This document shows positions 6,302-20,148 of a DNA stretch of 20,148 bases, piece after piece. Made by a program: the position numbers and the translations under genes. The notes below the pieces were generated by a model, which was given only the letters and a program-made list of their open reading frames with translations, made no database searches and had not been told where the DNA came from. The stretch is from a virus: IMG/VR virus record IMGVR_UViG_3300029319_000574, positions 1 to 20,148 of that record, one strand, 5' to 3'. The first letter of the stretch is position 1. Every line of letters starts with the position of its first letter.

Positions 6302-9300
6302 ATGACATACTCAGGCAGTACACAAAACTCCTCGTATTCTAAACGCACATACAACAAGAAAGACGCAAACGATCTTGCTGCATTAGCTAAGGCTATGGAT
6401 AAACAGCGTAAGGAAACGGTAACAGAATTTAGACAAGCATCGACAGATCAGCTTGGTGAGTTAGATCGACAAGATAAAATACAATACAGTAACGATCAAT
6501 TTCAAATAAGACAACTAGCTAAGTTTAGTGACAATTTAAACAGTTTCTTAAAAGAGTCTGTTGAAAGTGTAGGTAAAGCATATATTGATAATAAACGCCA
6601 AGAAGGTATTGAATTTGAAAGAAAATACCGTGCGGGTGATCCAGACGCAGTAGCTAAAATTGACGCTGATAAAGAGCAATTAAAACAGATTGAGGAACAA
6701 GTAAACTCAATGTCTCAAGAAATCAATGAGTCTGTTGACGCATTTCTTAGTAGAAAAGCAGAGGAAGAGATTTCACTCAAAGATAAAATAAGAGCTCTTA
6801 ACGTAAAGAAACTTGGCCCAAACATTCGTTGGGGTTTTGTAAGAGCTCAGTTACAAGAATCCGCTCAAGGTTATAGTTCACATCTAATTGATACTTTACA
6901 AAACAGTGAAGAGCAATTTACAACTAAAGATAACACTACTTATACTATTGGTAAATACAGTGAGATACTAAACCCAGACCATAAGAAAGAGATTGAGGAT
7001 TATGTTGAAGATCAGTACATTGCTAACAACAACCCGTTTGGTGCTTCTGATGTAGTTAGAAATGCTTATCTTACTGCAAAGGTAGTTGAGACTACTGACA
7101 AGTATAGAGAAAAAGAGTATATAAAAGAAAGAGCACAACTAGGTGAACAACAACAAACTGGTAGAGTTGACACGTTAATTACATCTTCAATAGATTTCGA
7201 TGCTGATAGAGTCACAACTGTTACACTAGCAGACGGTACAACTATAGAAGAAAATCGTAGTATTATTGCTTTAGATGGTGCTATACAAAATCTACTTACC
7301 GAAGGCCCTAGCAGCGAAGCTATGGTCAACGATAATGTTAGCCCATACAAAGCTAATAAAACTAGAGTTATAAATGCTATAAAAGAGGCTTATTCATTTT
7401 TAGACTCTGACACTGCAGCAGAACTTACTGAACATTTATTAAAGAAAAAATTTAAGATGGCTGGTATGGAGGGTACACTAGAAACCCTAATGGCAGGTGA
7501 CTTAAATCTAAAAGAGATAATGTCAGAGCATGGTAGTAAGGTAGCCTTACAAAATGAAAGGTTACGTAAAACAATGTTATCTGATTTTAACACAGAAATA
7601 AATGGGTATTACAAGTCATATCGTGAAGGTAAATTAACTGAACAGGAAGTTAGAGATCAAGCTAAAATAATTAAATCAAGTGGTGCTTATGATTTGATAT
7701 TTGATGAAGCTGAGTTTCAGAAAAAACTAATAGCTTTAGAAGAGTGGAAGCCAGCTCATTTTAATTACACTGATTCTATGGGTAAAGCCGATGACATTAT
7801 GAACGATCAGGGATTTTTGTCTAGTGCAGATATGTTACAGATGCACCCAGAAGCTCTAAAAGAGATAATGGAAGATGCTAATGGTAAGAAAGAAAGATTT
7901 ATATATAAGGATAATCTTATCTGGGCTAAAATGGGTAAATCAAATTTTGATACTCTTTTAGATAAAACCTTAGAACCTATAAATGGTGCAATAGATGCAA
8001 TAGTTAAAGAAACAGCTATTGATCTAACTGATGACATAACCATGAACGCTATCAAAGATGCAACTAGAGCACATTTACTACGTAAAGCTAACTTGTATCA
8101 CTTAAATGGTAGTTCTGGGGTTAAAGCCTTATCACAGGCTGCTATTGAAGTTGGAACAGAGCTTCAAGCTGGTACAGGTATTTTTGCACGAGATGGTGAG
8201 AAATTTACTGATATTAGGATGCAACCTCCAACAATAGCAGGTGGACAAGATATAGAAACTCTAATACAAGAAGGTGCTGTCGTTACAGCTAAATTAGACA
8301 TATTACAAGGATCTGGTAAACAAGAAGATTTTTTAGCAACTAAAGTTCTTATACCTGCAGGTAGTAAATTACTAGAACCAGACGTAGGTGAAGATGGTGT
8401 TATACGTAAGTTACCTAACGCTTTGTTTGAAATAGCAGAGTATAGCGAAACAGGTTATACAGCTATAGATGTTTTAAATTTACAACGTAAGGTAAATAAG
8501 TTAGAACCTTATAAATTAAGTGAGTTTTCTCCCGAACTACAGGCGTTACATACTAAGGTTAAGAATGAATATCCACATCTAGCTAAAGTTTTTAACAGTA
8601 GTCCAGAAGGAACATCAAGAGCTATAGATGAACTAGGTGCTGTCGATCTAAATACATTAACAAACTCTGTTATTGTCAACATAGAATCTCCTATATTTGA
8701 AGGTGACTTAGATCAAGTGCTAACTAGATTTGGCTATGAAAAAGATAAGTATGACAACAGTGCGTTAATACAAGAAGAAGTAAGACGTAAACAAGTAAAC
8801 TATTTACTAAAAACAGCATTACAAACAACTAATGACAAGAACCAAGCTATACTTATGGTAGCTACTGGTATGAGATTTGGTGAAAGTTCTATGAATGATT
8901 ATGGTGAGGGTAGTATTTATGATAATATTAGTAACCAAAAATCTGATTATGCCTATTCTGTTTTAGATGCGTATTACTCAGGAGATACTTCTAAGTTAAT
9001 AGGTACTTATAGTAGTGATACACTTGTTACAGGTCAGTTTAGAGATCTTACAAAAACAGAGGCTAAGTATAACTTAGAACCTAACTATGTTATGGAAAAC
9101 ATTGTAGGTAATGTTAAGAATATAAATTTAAGAGATACAGCAAAGAATAAAGCTGTTCTAGAAATACTTAATAATAAACAGTTTATACCACCAGAAGATA
9201 TAGTAGTACCTAGTGCTGGTCTATATGGTAGAAGTGTTATACGTAACCCTCTATATGATAAGTATAAGCAAGCTCTAAAAATCTACACAGATATTGACAA

Positions 9301-9580
9301 TCTTACAACTAAAATAAGTAAGCAAGATACAAGTATACTTAACAGTAAAAAAGAATACTTTAACTTACAAAAATTATTACAGTTCCAAGAAAGTCATGAT
9401 TTAGGTGGTAAGTATGTACCGATTACTGATTCAAAGTTTTTTGTCTATAGAGATGAATGGATGGAGAAAAATGGTAGTAAATACCAAGGTGCAAACAAGA
9501 ACAAGGTTAAACAATTAAACAAACAAAGAATGGAGTATATACTCTTAAAATCTAAAGAATACTTAGGTTTGGGTGAATAA
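6302..9580 (+). CDS. Internal core/ejection protein (T7 gp15-like)
   Basis: The product is 1092 residues, considerably longer than T7 gp15 (about 747). It has the expected position, between the gp14-like and gp16-like genes. It is highly charged and probably mostly helical, with Glu/Lys/Gln-rich segments such as DADKEQLKQIEEQVNSMSQE (about residues 120-139), and no signal peptide or membrane span is evident. The family forms the middle part of the internal core and, after ejection, a periplasmic tube. No enzymatic motif was recognised. The start lies 8 nt after the previous stop, with only AAGG very close to the ATG as a possible ribosome-binding site. The family is identified mainly by context; the sequence itself is divergent. 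Confidence 0.85.
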   Translation: MTYSGSTQNSSYSKRTYNKKDANDLAALAKAMDKQRKETVTEFRQASTDQLGELDRQDKIQYSNDQFQIRQLAKFSDNLNSFLKESVESVGKAYIDNKRQEGIEFERKYRAGDPDAVAKIDADKEQLKQIEEQVNSMSQEINESVDAFLSRKAEEEISLKDKIRALNVKKLGPNIRWGFVRAQLQESAQGYSSHLIDTLQNSEEQFTTKDNTTYTIGKYSEILNPDHKKEIEDYVEDQYIANNNPFGASDVVRNAYLTAKVVETTDKYREKEYIKERAQLGEQQQTGRVDTLITSSIDFDADRVTTVTLADGTTIEENRSIIALDGAIQNLLTEGPSSEAMVNDNVSPYKANKTRVINAIKEAYSFLDSDTAAELTEHLLKKKFKMAGMEGTLETLMAGDLNLKEIMSEHGSKVALQNERLRKTMLSDFNTEINGYYKSYREGKLTEQEVRDQAKIIKSSGAYDLIFDEAEFQKKLIALEEWKPAHFNYTDSMGKADDIMNDQGFLSSADMLQMHPEALKEIMEDANGKKERFIYKDNLIWAKMGKSNFDTLLDKTLEPINGAIDAIVKETAIDLTDDITMNAIKDATRAHLLRKANLYHLNGSSGVKALSQAAIEVGTELQAGTGIFARDGEKFTDIRMQPPTIAGGQDIETLIQEGAVVTAKLDILQGSGKQEDFLATKVLIPAGSKLLEPDVGEDGVIRKLPNALFEIAEYSETGYTAIDVLNLQRKVNKLEPYKLSEFSPELQALHTKVKNEYPHLAKVFNSSPEGTSRAIDELGAVDLNTLTNSVIVNIESPIFEGDLDQVLTRFGYEKDKYDNSALIQEEVRRKQVNYLLKTALQTTNDKNQAILMVATGMRFGESSMNDYGEGSIYDNISNQKSDYAYSVLDAYYSGDTSKLIGTYSSDTLVTGQFRDLTKTEAKYNLEPNYVMENIVGNVKNINLRDTAKNKAVLEILNNKQFIPPEDIVVPSAGLYGRSVIRNPLYDKYKQALKIYTDIDNLTTKISKQDTSILNSKKEYFNLQKLLQFQESHDLGGKYVPITDSKFFVYRDEWMEKNGSKYQGANKNKVKQLNKQRMEYILLKSKEYLGLGE

Positions 9581-14420: not shown

Positions 14421-17400
14421 ATGGCAGTCACAACTAAAATTCTTTTTCCTGCCACAAGCAACAGTAGCACCACCGATTTTAGCTTGTCGGGACTACAACT
14501 TCATAATCAAGATGATTTAGATGTCTATGTTACTAAAACAACAGCTGGTATAGCTGCTAATAATAACAAACGTATTTTACATAATAGACAAAGTACTAAC
14601 AGTAATGTAGACGCTAATCATAAACAAGTAAATAACACAGACGGACTGTACTTCCCAGCCATAACACATACAGGGGGTACAGAAACTTTAGAAAACTATC
14701 AAATAGTAAACAATAATGGTACAGTACGGTTTAACAATGCTTTACCTAGTGGTGCTATTGTTTTTGTTGAACGTAGAACCAGAGATGAATCTGGTACATA
14801 TACTGCGTTTGCTAGTGGTAGTACTATAAGAGCTAGAGATCTTAACGATTCAGCTGAACAATCAAACTTTACAGCACAAGAAGCTAGAAATAAATCACTA
14901 ACTATAGAAGGTGTTTTATTTGACGGAGATCAACCAAGCACAAACTTTGTTACAACTAGCCATATTGTAGATGATACTATAACCACAGCTAAAATAGTAG
15001 ATGCAAACGTAACTACTGCTAAGATAGCAAATGATGCTGTTACAGTAGATAAACTTGCAAATAACTCAGTGGTTGCTGGTAATATACAAAACGGACAAGT
15101 AGGATCAGTCGCTCTAGCAACTAACGCAGTAACTACTGATAAGATTCTAAATGATTCTGTAACTACAGCTAAAATACCTAACAATGCAATTTTAAATGCA
15201 AAAATAGCTGACGATCAAATTGACTCTAGACACTATGTAGACGGTAGTATAGATACAGCTCACTTAGGTAATAATGCAGTAACTACTAATAAAATTACAG
15301 ATAACTCTGTAACTACAGCTAAAATACCTAATGACGCAGTAACTACAGCTAAAATAGCAGACAGTAATGTTACAACAGCTAAACTAGCAAACGATGCAGT
15401 TACAGTAGATAAACTTGCAAATAACTCAGTCGTTGCTGGTAATATACAGAATGGAGCTGTAGGGTCACTTGCTTTAGCTACTAACGCAGTAACCACAAAT
15501 AAGATAACAAACAGTAGTGTAACCGTAGATAAAATTGCTGACGGTAATATTACTACAACTAAATTAGCTAATAATGCTGTTACTACAGCTAAAATTAATG
15601 ATGCACAAATTACTACAGCTAAAATTGCCGATAGTAATGTAACTACTGCAAAGATAGCTAATGATGCTGTTACAGTAGATAAACTAGCCAACAATGCAGT
15701 TGTTGCAGCTAACATTCAAAATGGAGAGGTAGGTTCACTTGCCTTATCTACTAACGCAGTTACTACAGATAAAATTACAGATGCAAACGTAACTAGAGTT
15801 AAAATTGCAGCAGATGCAGTTGACAGCACTAAATTAGCTGATAATGCAGTTGACTCAGAACACTATGTAGATGGATCTATAGATGAAGTTCACTTAAATG
15901 CTAACATTGTAAGTAGTAGCAAAATTATAAACGGTGCTGTTATAGAGACTAAAATAGGCACTAATGCAGTAACTACAGCTAAGATAGCAAATGATGCTGT
16001 AACAGCAGATAAAATTGCAGATGCAGTTATTGTTACAAATGCTGAACAAGCAAGTCATAGTGTAAATGATACAACATTCTTTACAACAGCAGCAGCTGAA
16101 GCTAGATACTTTAACGCATCAACTGGAGAGACTATTAAAGATGGTCAAACATTTCCAGATAACGATACAACAATCGCTACAACCGCAGCCATCAACGACA
16201 GGATTATTGACTTAGTTGATGATGTTGGTGGGTTTGTACCAATAGCAAATGAAACATCTTTTCCGACTTCTAATCCTGATATTAATAATGGTTCTGGTAC
16301 TCTGGTATCTATTAAATCTATATCAAGCACACGTACACCAAGCAGTGGCACAGTCACTATTGCAAACGGTGCGGGAACTGGTAACACTGTATCTATTACG
16401 GGGTGTGGATCAACCGTTCTTACCGCAGGTTTTGGTATAATTGTAGAAACTACATCTACCTTACATACATATGCGTTTCATAGATTAGTACCAAAAGCGA
16501 CAGAGGTTACAACTGTTGCAAGCAATATAACTAACATTGTTAATGCTGGATCTAACACTGCAAATATAAATGCTGTAGCTGGTAATGCTACTAACATAAA
16601 TACTGTAGCTGGTAATAACTCAAACATTACTGCTGTTGCTAATAACTCAAGTAATATTAATAGTGCAGTATCTAATGCATCAAACATTAACAGTGCTGTA
16701 TCTAACGCTAGTAATATAAATACTGTTGCAGGGTCTATATCCAATGTAAATACAGCAGCTACAAATATTTCAAGTATTAATACTGCTGCAAGTAATATTA
16801 CAAACGTAAATAACTTTACTGATAGATACCAAATAGCATCTTCTAACCCAACAACAGATGGTGGTGGTAATGCACTTGCTGCTGGAGACTTGTACTTTAA
16901 TACATCTGCTAACGAACTAAAAGTTTATACAGGTTCTGCCTGGCAGGGTGGTGTTACAGCTACAGGTAACTTTGCTTCGGTTACTGGTAATACATTTACT
17001 GGTAGTAACATATATAACGACAACGTAAAAGCTATATTTGGTACAGGGTCAGATTTTCAAATATATCATAATGGTTCTCATACATTTTTAGAAAATAGTA
17101 CAGGTCATGTTTGTTTTCGTGCTGGCGGTGGTCAGATACAATTACAAGCTGTAAATGGTGAAAACGGAGTTCTTATAAGACCTGATGGAGCCGTAGAAAT
17201 TAAGTACGACAACAGTAAAAAGTTTGAGACAGTTACAGGTGGAGTTACTATTACAGGTACTTTAACTGCTGATCGGGTAGACGTTAGTGATAATGAAAAA
17301 ATTAGAGTTGGAGCATCTGGAGACATATTGTTGTTACATGATGCAAATGGATCAGAGCATGGTGTTGCTGGTAGTTCTTATATTAAATGTCAAGGTGTTC

Positions 17401-20148
17401 ACGATAATATTTTAAATATATTTACTGCTTCTGCTACAGGAAAAATACATCTTAAAAATAATAACTTAAATAAAACTATGTTATCGGCTAACGGTAACGG
17501 ATCAGTAGACTTATATCACAATAACACTAAAAGGTTTGAGACAACTGGAAATGGAGTAAATGTTATAGGAAATTTAATTGCCGATTGTAATGTCTCAATA
17601 GATCCTGACTCCAATACAAACCATTTTATAACAGGTGCTATTCAAGATGGTAGTGGTTGGTCAGCTCAAGGAATCGCCTTTGGTCAAGGAACAGGCAAGA
17701 TGGCTGCTTTTGGAGTCTCTAATTCACTATACATGGCTCATGGTGACGGTAGTAATGCCAATAGCTTGACAACTTTTATGGAAGTCAATAATGCTGGAAG
17801 AGTAAAATTACATTATAATGGTAGTGGCAAATTTGAGACTACAAGTACTGGAGCAACTATTACTGGTACTTTAATTGCTGATGGTTTAACTCTTTACGAT
17901 AATGAAAAATTACTAATTGGAACTAATACCGATATAGAGGTTTTTCATGATGGTACAAATAGTATTTTTCAAAGTGATACTGGAGATTTACAGATAAATT
18001 CTGGAAACTCTGCTGGTAATGTAGAAATAAATTTAAACAATAATGTTGCTGGTAACACTAGAGAAACATCAGCAAAGTTTATAAAAAATGGAGCAGTAGA
18101 ACTCTATTACGACAACAGTAAAAAGTTTGAGACAACAACTAATGGTGTACTTACAACTGGAAATATTCAACTTGATACTGATAGCGGAAAACTAACTGTT
18201 GGAGATTCTGGAGATTTTGAACTTTATCATAATGGTACATCAACTTATTTAGACAATCTAACTGGACATCTAATAATAAGAAATAATGTAGGTGGTGATC
18301 AAAATAATAATATTTATATAAAGGTTAAACAAGATGAAGATGGAATTGTTATAAATGATGACGCTGACGTAGAGTTATATTACGACAACAGTAAGAAGTT
18401 TCAAACTACTGCTAATGGCGGATTATTTACCAGTAGTAGAGTTCAATTTCATAATACTACTTCTTCTGGTAGTTATGCTCAATTCACTAACTCAGGTACA
18501 GGTCATGCAAGTAATTCGGGGCTTTGGGTTGGTGCAAATAGTTCAAATCAAGGAGTTGTACAGAACAAAGAAAACTCACATATTCTATTTTATACTAATG
18601 ACACTAAAACCTTTGAGCTTAGAGCTAATGGTGATGCAGCTCTTACAGGTGATAAAGGTTTATATCTTGGTGCAAATGATGATCTTTTAGTTGGTCATGA
18701 TGGTAGTCTTACACGAATAACAGATACTTTTGGTCACATGAAGATCTCAAGTAATACTATTGAGATTACTAACCAAGCATTAGGTGAAAATTATATAAAA
18801 GCCGTAAATAATGGACAAGTAGAACTCTACTATGACAATAGTATCAAGCTTAAGACTACAAGTGTTGGTGTACAAATTAATGGAGACTTAAATTTTTCTG
18901 ATTCTGTTGCAAATGACATACATCTTCGTGGTGGAAAAATTTATGGTGATGATGGTGCTACAAATGCGTTTACACTTCAAAATACTTCTGGAAATGCAAA
19001 CCATTCAAAAATAGTTATTGGTGACAGTTTTGGAAGTGATAATGGTGGTATTACATTTTATGGTGCTGGTAGTTCTAGTACTGACGTAAAGTTAAGAATT
19101 AGAGGAACTACTGATACAGTAGAAATTTCCGATAACCACAAATTTGTTTGCGGAGATGGTTCGGATTTACAAATTTATCACGATGGATCAAACTCTCATA
19201 TTGCTGAAGCTGGAACTGGTGTATTAAAAATATCAGGTAGTGCTGGGGTATATATCAACAAACATGATAACTCAGAAACTATGGCAGCATTTTTACATGA
19301 TGCTGGAGTAGAACTGTATCACAACAACAATAAAAAGTTTGAGACAACAAGTGGTGGTGCAACTGTTACAGGTAATTTAACTGTTTCAAATGTGCTACTT
19401 GATTCTTCTACAAGCGTTATTAGATGGCCAGAAAATGCTGGTAGTAATACTTCTAGAACGTGGGATATAATTGGTGAACAAGGTGGATATGGATTCCTTG
19501 AGGTTAAATATGCTAGTGCTTATAATGGTTCTGCCAACGAAAAAAGTGTTAGATTTAATGCAAATGCTGGCGTAATTCTCTACTACGACAACGCTCAAAA
19601 GTTTGAGACAAGATCGGGTGGGTGTCATGTAACTGGACACTTAGAGCTTGACGATAACGGTAAAGTCATGCTTGGTGCTAGTAATGATATGCAGATTTAC
19701 CATGATGGTGCAAATTCTAGGATTTCTGATAATGGTACTGGTAACTTAGTATTAGATAGTAATAACGTAATTATTCAAAGTAATGATCAGACTGAGACAC
19801 AAGCAATCTTTGCTTCAAATGCAGATGTAAAACTGTATTATGATAACTCTCAAAAATTTACTACAGCATCTAACGGAGCTATAGTTTATAATAAACTAGG
19901 TATAGGAGTTTTAGTTGGAAATAGTCTTGGTAGTACTAGAACTTATGCTATAGCTATAGGAGACAATGACACTGGTATAGCACAAAATGGTGATGGTATA
20001 CTAGAGTTTTGGTCTAATAACCAAGTTAAACAAACAATAGCTCAAGGCGGTAATGGTCATAGAGTTATGTTTAACCACACAGATACTGGTACTTATAATG
20101 CTCATGTTTCTGCAAGACAAAATTCTAACGGGCCTTATCCGTTTGGAG
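14421..20148 (+). CDS. Giant tail fibre protein (T7 gp17-like N-terminus), 3' truncated
   Basis: The frame is open from ATG 14421 to the last base, giving more than 1909 residues; T7 gp17 is 553. The N-terminus (about residues 1-165) matches the T7 tail-fibre attachment domain, with ERRTRD (about 117-122), GSTIRARDLNDSAEQ and AQEARNK (about 151-157). Then come about 30 short repeats of the type NAVTTAKIAD (about 178-538). A single-copy domain follows (about 550-700) with ARYFNASTGETIKDGQ and AAINDRIIDLVDDVGGFVPI, then ten 10-residue repeats (702-801), and then about ten longer units ending in LYYDNSKKFETT (about 869 to the edge). The product should be an elongated homotrimer that binds the host surface. 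The C-terminal tip or chaperone lies outside the window. The start lacks a Shine-Dalgarno sequence and is preceded by the AT-only run TAATAACTAAATAA. Confidence 0.92.
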   Translation, partial: MAVTTKILFPATSNSSTTDFSLSGLQLHNQDDLDVYVTKTTAGIAANNNKRILHNRQSTNSNVDANHKQVNNTDGLYFPAITHTGGTETLENYQIVNNNGTVRFNNALPSGAIVFVERRTRDESGTYTAFASGSTIRARDLNDSAEQSNFTAQEARNKSLTIEGVLFDGDQPSTNFVTTSHIVDDTITTAKIVDANVTTAKIANDAVTVDKLANNSVVAGNIQNGQVGSVALATNAVTTDKILNDSVTTAKIPNNAILNAKIADDQIDSRHYVDGSIDTAHLGNNAVTTNKITDNSVTTAKIPNDAVTTAKIADSNVTTAKLANDAVTVDKLANNSVVAGNIQNGAVGSLALATNAVTTNKITNSSVTVDKIADGNITTTKLANNAVTTAKINDAQITTAKIADSNVTTAKIANDAVTVDKLANNAVVAANIQNGEVGSLALSTNAVTTDKITDANVTRVKIAADAVDSTKLADNAVDSEHYVDGSIDEVHLNANIVSSSKIINGAVIETKIGTNAVTTAKIANDAVTADKIADAVIVTNAEQASHSVNDTTFFTTAAAEARYFNASTGETIKDGQTFPDNDTTIATTAAINDRIIDLVDDVGGFVPIANETSFPTSNPDINNGSGTLVSIKSISSTRTPSSGTVTIANGAGTGNTVSITGCGSTVLTAGFGIIVETTSTLHTYAFHRLVPKATEVTTVASNITNIVNAGSNTANINAVAGNATNINTVAGNNSNITAVANNSSNINSAVSNASNINSAVSNASNINTVAGSISNVNTAATNISSINTAASNITNVNNFTDRYQIASSNPTTDGGGNALAAGDLYFNTSANELKVYTGSAWQGGVTATGNFASVTGNTFTGSNIYNDNVKAIFGTGSDFQIYHNGSHTFLENSTGHVCFRAGGGQIQLQAVNGENGVLIRPDGAVEIKYDNSKKFETVTGGVTITGTLTADRVDVSDNEKIRVGASGDILLLHDANGSEHGVAGSSYIKCQGVHDNILNIFTASATGKIHLKNNNLNKTMLSANGNGSVDLYHNNTKRFETTGNGVNVIGNLIADCNVSIDPDSNTNHFITGAIQDGSGWSAQGIAFGQGTGKMAAFGVSNSLYMAHGDGSNANSLTTFMEVNNAGRVKLHYNGSGKFETTSTGATITGTLIADGLTLYDNEKLLIGTNTDIEVFHDGTNSIFQSDTGDLQINSGNSAGNVEINLNNNVAGNTRETSAKFIKNGAVELYYDNSKKFETTTNGVLTTGNIQLDTDSGKLTVGDSGDFELYHNGTSTYLDNLTGHLIIRNNVGGDQNNNIYIKVKQDEDGIVINDDADVELYYDNSKKFQTTANGGLFTSSRVQFHNTTSSGSYAQFTNSGTGHASNSGLWVGANSSNQGVVQNKENSHILFYTNDTKTFELRANGDAALTGDKGLYLGANDDLLVGHDGSLTRITDTFGHMKISSNTIEITNQALGENYIKAVNNGQVELYYDNSIKLKTTSVGVQINGDLNFSDSVANDIHLRGGKIYGDDGATNAFTLQNTSGNANHSKIVIGDSFGSDNGGITFYGAGSSSTDVKLRIRGTTDTVEISDNHKFVCGDGSDLQIYHDGSNSHIAEAGTGVLKISGSAGVYINKHDNSETMAAFLHDAGVELYHNNNKKFETTSGGATVTGNLTVSNVLLDSSTSVIRWPENAGSNTSRTWDIIGEQGGYGFLEVKYASAYNGSANEKSVRFNANAGVILYYDNAQKFETRSGGCHVTGHLELDDNGKVMLGASNDMQIYHDGANSRISDNGTGNLVLDSNNVIIQSNDQTETQAIFASNADVKLYYDNSQKFTTASNGAIVYNKLGIGVLVGNSLGSTRTYAIAIGDNDTGIAQNGDGILEFWSNNQVKQTIAQGGNGHRVMFNHTDTGTYNAHVSARQNSNGPYPFG
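15027..15146 (+). repeat. 40-residue fibre cassette, copy 1 of 3
   Basis: Residues 203-242 begin ANDAVTVDKLANNSVVAGNI and end with ATNAVTTDKI. The same cassette recurs at 15387-15506 and 15657-15776 with few changes. The first two copies are 360 bp apart and the last two 270 bp apart. Confidence 0.85.
15387..15506 (+). repeat. 40-residue fibre cassette, copy 2 of 3
   Basis: It differs from copy 1 by about three residues: GQV becomes GAV, SVAL becomes SLAL, and the end reads NAVTTNKI. Synonymous differences are scattered through the DNA, so the copies are not a very recent exact duplication. Confidence 0.85.
15657..15776 (+). repeat. 40-residue fibre cassette, copy 3 of 3
   Basis: This copy reads NNAVVAANIQNGEVGSLALS in its middle and ends NAVTTDKI like copy 1. 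It is slightly more diverged than copies 1 and 2 are from each other. Confidence 0.85.
16524..16823 (+). repeat. Ten in-register 10-residue repeats in the fibre
   Basis: Residues 702-801 divide without gaps into ten decads of the pattern N-x-[TS]-N-[IV]-N-x-[AV]-[AV]-[GSN], for example NATNINTVAG, NSSNINSAVS and NASNINTVAG. At the DNA level this is a 30-bp period over 300 bp. Hydrophobic residues fall at decad positions 2, 5 and 8, a 3-3-4 spacing. The last unit is degenerate and leads into NNFTDRYQ. This is probably a rod or linker between the shaft domain and the C-terminal repeats. Confidence 0.85.
17025..20148 (+). repeat. Long C-terminal fibre repeats (YHDG ... LYYDNSKKFETT type)
   Basis: About ten imperfect units carry a shared closing motif, in fibre residue order: KYDNSKKFETV (928), LYHNNTKRFETT (1031), LHYNGSGKFETT (1130), LYYDNSKKFETT (1228), LYYDNSKKFQTT (1319), FYTNDTKTFELR (1390), LYYDNSIKLKTT (1469), LYHNNNKKFETT (1632), LYYDNAQKFETR (1720) and LYYDNSQKFTTA (1805). 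Most are followed by a short T-G-x-L strand segment and a [DE]-[LF]-x-[IL]-Y-H-[DN]-G opening motif. Spacing is 71-103 residues, with one gap of 163 where a motif has degenerated. The units are probably beta-rich and trimeric. They continue towards the window edge. Confidence 0.85.

Follow-up and report, generated by a model that had tools for sequence, protein, structure and literature searches.

A very long, modular tail fibre gene in a Tangaroavirus-like podovirus, with a predicted S74 chaperone at its end and traces of module exchange among its relatives

Tail fibres decide the host among cyanobacteria, which carry much of the photosynthesis of the ocean. The fibre gp28 of P-SCSP1u (PDB 8i4m chain e, 1079 aa) belongs to a T7-type tail, and only the N-terminal part of the fibre was resolved in the structure (PMC10575957). 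Longer fibres occur in Tangaroavirus isolates, such as the Prochlorococcus phages P-SCSP-R27W (PQ540732; 1761 aa) and P-SSP10 (HQ337022; ~2032 aa, in two pieces of 1141 and 891 aa at the record ends). The L-shaped fibre pb1 of the unrelated phage T5 (1396 aa) ends in a self-cleaving S74-type chaperone of 133 aa, with the pair Ser1264/Lys1269 and an arginine about 14 residues before the cleaved serine (PMC4690869). The same spacing is given for MYRF, a human protein with the same domain (S578/K583; PMC3742443). The fibre gp17 of T7 itself follows gp16 and is short, and it is not known to contain a comparable shaft, repeat units or an S74 domain.

The window analysed here comprises 20,148 nucleotides, the first part of a virus record of 22,119 bases (IMGVR_UViG_3300029319_000574). 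Its structural genes are ordered gp11-gp12-gp13-gp14-gp15-gp16, followed by the fibre gene; family matches were obtained for the capsid protein, gp11, gp12, gp13 and gp14, and phrog_6651, the gp16 type, adjoins the fibre gene on its 5′ side. The gene in the gp15 position (6302-9577, 1092 aa) is syntenic, yet matched no family in Pfam or PHROG at E ≤ 0.01. The nozzle is 58–61% identical to those of Tangaroavirus isolates (tblastn) and about 31% or less to those of other cyanopodoviruses among the matches listed; for the fibre, too, the nearest relatives are Tangaroavirus isolates. These sequences place the virus among Tangaroavirus-like podoviruses of T7 type (Autographiviridae), with Prochlorococcus isolates as its closest relatives, and its host is very probably Prochlorococcus or Synechococcus. 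The preliminary description of a T7-type podovirus fibre, very long and modular, is upheld by the gene order, the homology of the anchor and the parts found along the protein. We put at roughly 90% the probability of the account as a whole, namely that this is the gp17-type fibre of a Tangaroavirus-like podovirus, with a modular arm and an S74 end, which evolves by module exchange.

The fibre gene lies in the gp17 position on the plus strand, as do all features given below. It begins with an ATG at 14421 and continues for 1909 codons without a stop to the window edge (14421..20147), as had been described from the letters alone; at 1909/553 = 3.45, the original figure of more than three times the length of T7 gp17 (553 aa from the NC_001604 coordinates) also holds. 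A chance open frame was excluded because tblastn finds collinear relatives, the P-SCSP-R27W fibre aligning without a break to residues 1–1778 (34% identity, 93% of the query). The end of the window was evidently set by a scaffold gap, ten consecutive N (record 20149-20158) inside the fibre tip that begin one base past the last full codon of the window. Read straight through the ten N, the fibre frame meets a stop shortly after the gap, at 1916 aa; since the length of an N gap is arbitrary, we regard this stop as an artefact. Another frame after the gap runs for 135 codons to a stop at record 20566-20568, and the placeholder length thus splits the gene over two frames. The extension of the contig to a stop codon, suggested at the outset as a check, leads to one beyond the gap in the shifted frame. 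The two frames were joined by homology with a single relative (1/1 found), the metagenomic contig L063, whose single 318-aa protein aligns to both flanks of the gap with 57% identity over the last 37 residues before it and 84% after it. Going by L063, 19 residues (~54 nt) would fall within the gap, in agreement with the reading frame; therefore a full fibre of ~2063 aa is expected, the known residues (1909 + 135 = 2044) setting its minimum length. A targeted search for the tip returned one further weak locus, L154, without S74, and viral_contigs, searched with an exact degenerate pattern taken from before the gap for a near-identical contig to fill it, gave 0 stretches.

The gap invites two other readings of the gene. 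According to the first, the sequence beyond the gap is part of a fibre gene of its own; P-SSP2 and P-SSP3 have such an arrangement, with S74 in a second fibre gene, and two-gene forms are also found in six further loci (S-TIP37/L006, L031, L038, L039, L041 and L043). In L063, however, the domain runs uninterrupted across both sides of the gap and in a consistent register, and we consider a separate S74 gene very unlikely. According to the second, the assembly has fused the fibre genes of two different phages into one long frame. A scaffold join does lie immediately past the window, blocks shared at the DNA level among fibres of this family give assemblers places to cross over, and the metagenomic contigs L052, L054 and L056 end inside the central module. 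Against this, the modules come in the same order in isolates, whose fibres are of similar length, the GC content is even along the gene (0.33–0.37), and the collinearity with P-SCSP-R27W is unbroken. Hence, of the assembly problem that had been named as the way to refute the long fibre, the join itself is present at the window edge, whereas a two-gene chimera carries only a slight probability, because L063 spans the same domain and relatives are collinear to residue 1778.

The stretch past the gap (record 20161-20565, outside the window) matches the endosialidase-type chaperone Peptidase_S74 (PF13884, E 7.8e-9, 36.1 bits against a cut-off of 22), and the self-cleaving chaperone that had been presumed to lie beyond the window is thereby confirmed at the level of a predicted domain with its Ser/Lys dyad. 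The predicted catalytic serine is encoded by record 20212-20214, and the serine with a lysine at +5 is found in 75/75 aligned sequences, the window virus included; the spacing is the same as in T5 pb1 and MYRF. The upstream oxyanion arginine, as in T5 pb1, is not evident here: position −14 from the serine is Asn in the window virus and mostly Ser or Thr in its relatives, with no conserved Arg, part of the upstream sequence lying inside the gap. The 70 complete proteins with this S74 module have a median length of 533 aa and the largest has 1459 aa, which makes the window fibre the longest carrier of the module seen.

At its N-terminus the fibre has a virion anchor (residues 1–165, 14421..14915), which is 56–58% identical to those of Tangaroavirus isolates (56% in P-SCSP-R27W, 58% in P-SSP10). 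Compared by hhalign with T7-like anchors it gives 97.8% and E 7e-13, while the comparison with T7 gp17 alone is weak (24.5%, E 8e-4), in keeping with a distant homology. The anchor had been called a standard T7 attachment domain; its likeness to T7 anchors stands at the profile level, but 'standard' claims too much, since it carries an insertion of ~45 residues and a single-sequence Pfam search of the window fibre gave no PF03906 match even at E ≤ 10.

The three repeat types in series that had been reported behind the anchor were recovered as two decapeptide arrays followed by units of ~84 aa. The first array, of VTTAKIANDA type, forms a shaft (residues ~185–545, 14973..16055) with a period of 10, visible as tandem repeats in the DNA; in its self-similarity every best offset is a multiple of 10. 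It is followed by a 145-aa central module or 'junction' (residues 557–700, 16089..16520) and by the second array, of NINTVAGNAS type and likewise with a period of 10 (residues 701–800, 16521..16820). An AlphaFold model of residues 545–860, computed as a single chain like all our structure models of fibre parts (37 alignment rows, mean pLDDT 73), has a partly confident β domain at ~604–690 and a helix over ~693–802, and array 2 is therefore probably a helical stalk. The short β segment that follows (residues 801–860, 16821..17000) bears a weak Foldseek resemblance, at E about 7, to the tailspike TSP3 and to the trimerisation domain of collagen XVIII. A trimerisation domain is a possible interpretation of this segment.

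The largest part of the arm consists of nine units (residues 868–1828, 17022..19904), each of ~84 aa with the motif V-x-LYYDNSKKFET (unit HMM, i-E ≤ 1e-3). The model of residues 1128–1330 in this region (65 rows) is all-β with a pLDDT of 91.5. In sequence, the units are homologous to the C-terminal part of P-SCSP1u gp28 (E 3e-42), a fibre that also has a homologous central module but is half as long as the window fibre. A comparison of the unit fold with the PDB gave nothing significant, the best entry being the Mu tail fibre 5yvq (E 0.057). The fibre tip starts behind the units (residues 1829–1909, 19905..20147), where the 57% identity with L063 over 37 aa falls directly upstream of the S74 domain of that contig. 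Thus, of the tip and chaperone that had both been placed outside the window, the chaperone is indeed outside, whereas the tip begins inside, at about residue 1829, and only its last part is beyond the edge. The stretch 19959-20147 also shows a weak likeness (36%, E 4e-3) to distal subunits of T4-like long tail fibres from Enterobacter, Cronobacter and Klebsiella phages.

If the tail resembles that of P-SCSP1u, six homotrimers of the fibre would dock through their anchors between adaptor and nozzle. The shafts, the central hub and the units would form a long flexible arm, and the tip would contact and bind the cell. The S74 chaperone would trimerise the distal end and cut itself off before the serine at record 20212, as in T5 pb1. 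Beyond the presence of the parts this scheme is drawn from analogy. It could be asked whether each repeat unit is instead a receptor-binding domain, which would make the fibre a multivalent or broad-specificity adhesin. The units are numerous and divergent among themselves and from those of relatives (31–37% identity), as recognition surfaces would be. On the other hand, their common LYYDNSKKFET core is kept across phages, the model is plain all-β, no lectin or binding family was matched in the window protein, and the characterised fibres of T7 and T5 bind the receptor by their distal part (T7 as outlined in PMC10575957; T5 in PMC4690869). We thus judge binding by each unit improbable, though less so than either of the readings raised by the gap, and retain the arm with a distal binding tip; a large modular receptor specificity, as initially suggested, is a plausible hypothesis.

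The extra length of the fibre comes mainly from the stalk and the repeat units. Iron-binding HxH motifs were considered as a cause of the size and rejected, none being present among the 2044 known residues. Longer fibres tend to have more units (Spearman 0.59, n = 40 complete fibres), and nine units by the same HMM also occur in P-SCSP-R27W and L046. From annotated coordinates or ORFs, the fibres of P-SSP7, SS120-1, S-TIP37, P-SSP3, P-SCSP1b, NATL1A-7 and P-SSP2 have 715, 874, 1008, 1012, 1079, 1202 and 1295 aa, respectively. Those of the Tangaroavirus isolates have 1486 aa in NATL2A-133, 1708 aa each in 9515-10a and P-SSP6, and the lengths already given for P-SCSP-R27W and P-SSP10. The fibre of P-SSP10 (L007:14651-17326) is interrupted where its linear record starts and stops, and is annotated as two incomplete genes. 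Complete fibre ORFs that contain the central module number 41, a few of them near-duplicates, and range from 683 to 1824 aa with a median of 1342. Since the Tangaroavirus isolates span 1486–2032 aa, the window fibre stands at or near the top of the family but is typical of the genus. The view that a small podovirus would be exceptional in having a fibre of this size is therefore not borne out, and the comparison of lengths among related marine podoviruses, which the preliminary description had recommended, does not single it out as a lone outlier. The fibre adds a new and very long representative to a known class, and the most interesting part is the pattern of exchange.

This pattern centres on the central module, an unnamed domain between two differing shaft types. 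It has no Pfam family, and the comparison of its fold with the PDB gave no match below E 1. Its identity reaches 80% in P-SCSP-R27W, 74% in P-SSP10 and 72% in 9515-10a, compared with 56–58% for the anchor, 74% for the capsid protein (P-SCSP-R27W), 61–62% for the nozzle (P-SCSP-R27W and P-SSP10) and 31–37% for the units; by these values the module matches the capsid protein in conservation. In NATL2A-133, also a Tangaroavirus, it is only 29% identical and no units pass the HMM threshold, and we therefore recognise at least two central-module subfamilies. The module is present in fibres with differing anchors. Its identity with P-SCSP-R27W at fourfold sites is 42%, near chance (37%), and thus its conservation is mostly at the protein level; recent recombination as the cause of the conservation of the whole module is not supported, for the same reason.

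Two shorter stretches behave differently at synonymous sites. Among 59 relatives, fourfold identity is 51–60% at residues 561–620 (16101-16280) and 66% at residues 841–860 (16941-17000), against an expected 42–44%; it is 49% in the bin 661–680, and near or below expectation in the remaining bins. These values were obtained from 1559/1711 pairs, which share ancestry, and from few fourfold codons per bin. At residues 841–860, the end of the short β segment, the alignment contains long identical DNA words in many fibres. The pattern fits homologous recombination at this seam or a DNA-level constraint, and we grade it a lead because the pairs are non-independent and the codons in each bin are few.

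Around the central module, the parts of the fibre differ between relatives in a mosaic manner. The P-SCSP-R27W fibre, 300 aa shorter than the estimated total of the window fibre, has a tip without a match to residues 1831–1909 and no S74 match, and P-SSP10, similar in length, has the autoproteolytic domain Peptidase_G2 at its end where the window virus has S74. Among 45 C-termini (the window fibre, P-SSP10 and 43 relatives), S74 is found in 6/45, Peptidase_G2 in 1/45 (P-SSP10) and a Collar domain in 1/45, the rest having other or no Pfam families. In the six two-gene loci named above, the proximal fibre is without units and the units lie in a gene 3–4 nt past the fibre stop, and so the one-chain form seen here corresponds to two genes there. 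The fibres of P-SSP2 and P-SSP3 are 98% identical up to residue 715 and have no such block thereafter; those of P-SCSP-R27W and 9515-10a are 98% identical up to residue 177, again with no such block thereafter. The metagenomic contigs L013 and L018 share 5798 bp of 95.8% identical DNA (L013:7486-13275, L018:10523-16312), which extends from fibre residue 150/175 to the fibre end and a further ~1.7 kb downstream, downstream genes included, while the identity between their gp16 proteins is only 28% and no match is obtained between their anchors. The same pattern is found in L019 and L021, with 92% identity over residues 179–787. All four (4/4) have phrog_6651 gp16 upstream of the fibre and are therefore T7-like podoviruses of different lineages.

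Compared in this way, anchors, unit arrays and tips are exchanged, and the family's fibres are natural mosaics. For Alteromonas phages, an exchange of fibres between distant phages has been described (PMC10579305), as have incongruent fibre trees for cyanopodoviruses (PMC4646655) and, for marine phages, a T7-like anchor followed by variable fibre ends (PMC3909814), and evolution of this kind is therefore not new. In the literature on cyanopodovirus fibres, S74, repeats and recombination, with subscription papers mostly outside reach, we found no report of the central module or of the exchange points. Length would grow by the accumulation of repeat units and by the joining of modules, while podovirus lineages would swap anchor, arm and tip, with selection holding the central module constant. 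As a wider proposal, to which we give somewhat less than even odds, the fibre distal to the anchor in marine T7-like podoviruses may be a mobile cassette with its own hub (residues 557–700), which selection holds while anchors, arms and tips are swapped; the DNA-conserved stretches at 561–620 and 841–860 may help, and deeply separated lineages would swap whole 1300-residue arms and the genes downstream of them. In P-SSP6 (L145:3534-7626) the gene in the gp16 position is annotated as two and is one in the near-identical 9515-10a, a frameshift or a difference in annotation. At the locus described here a giant fibre is coupled to a putatively removable chaperone, and its relatives indicate at which points fibres of this kind are broken and joined anew in nature.
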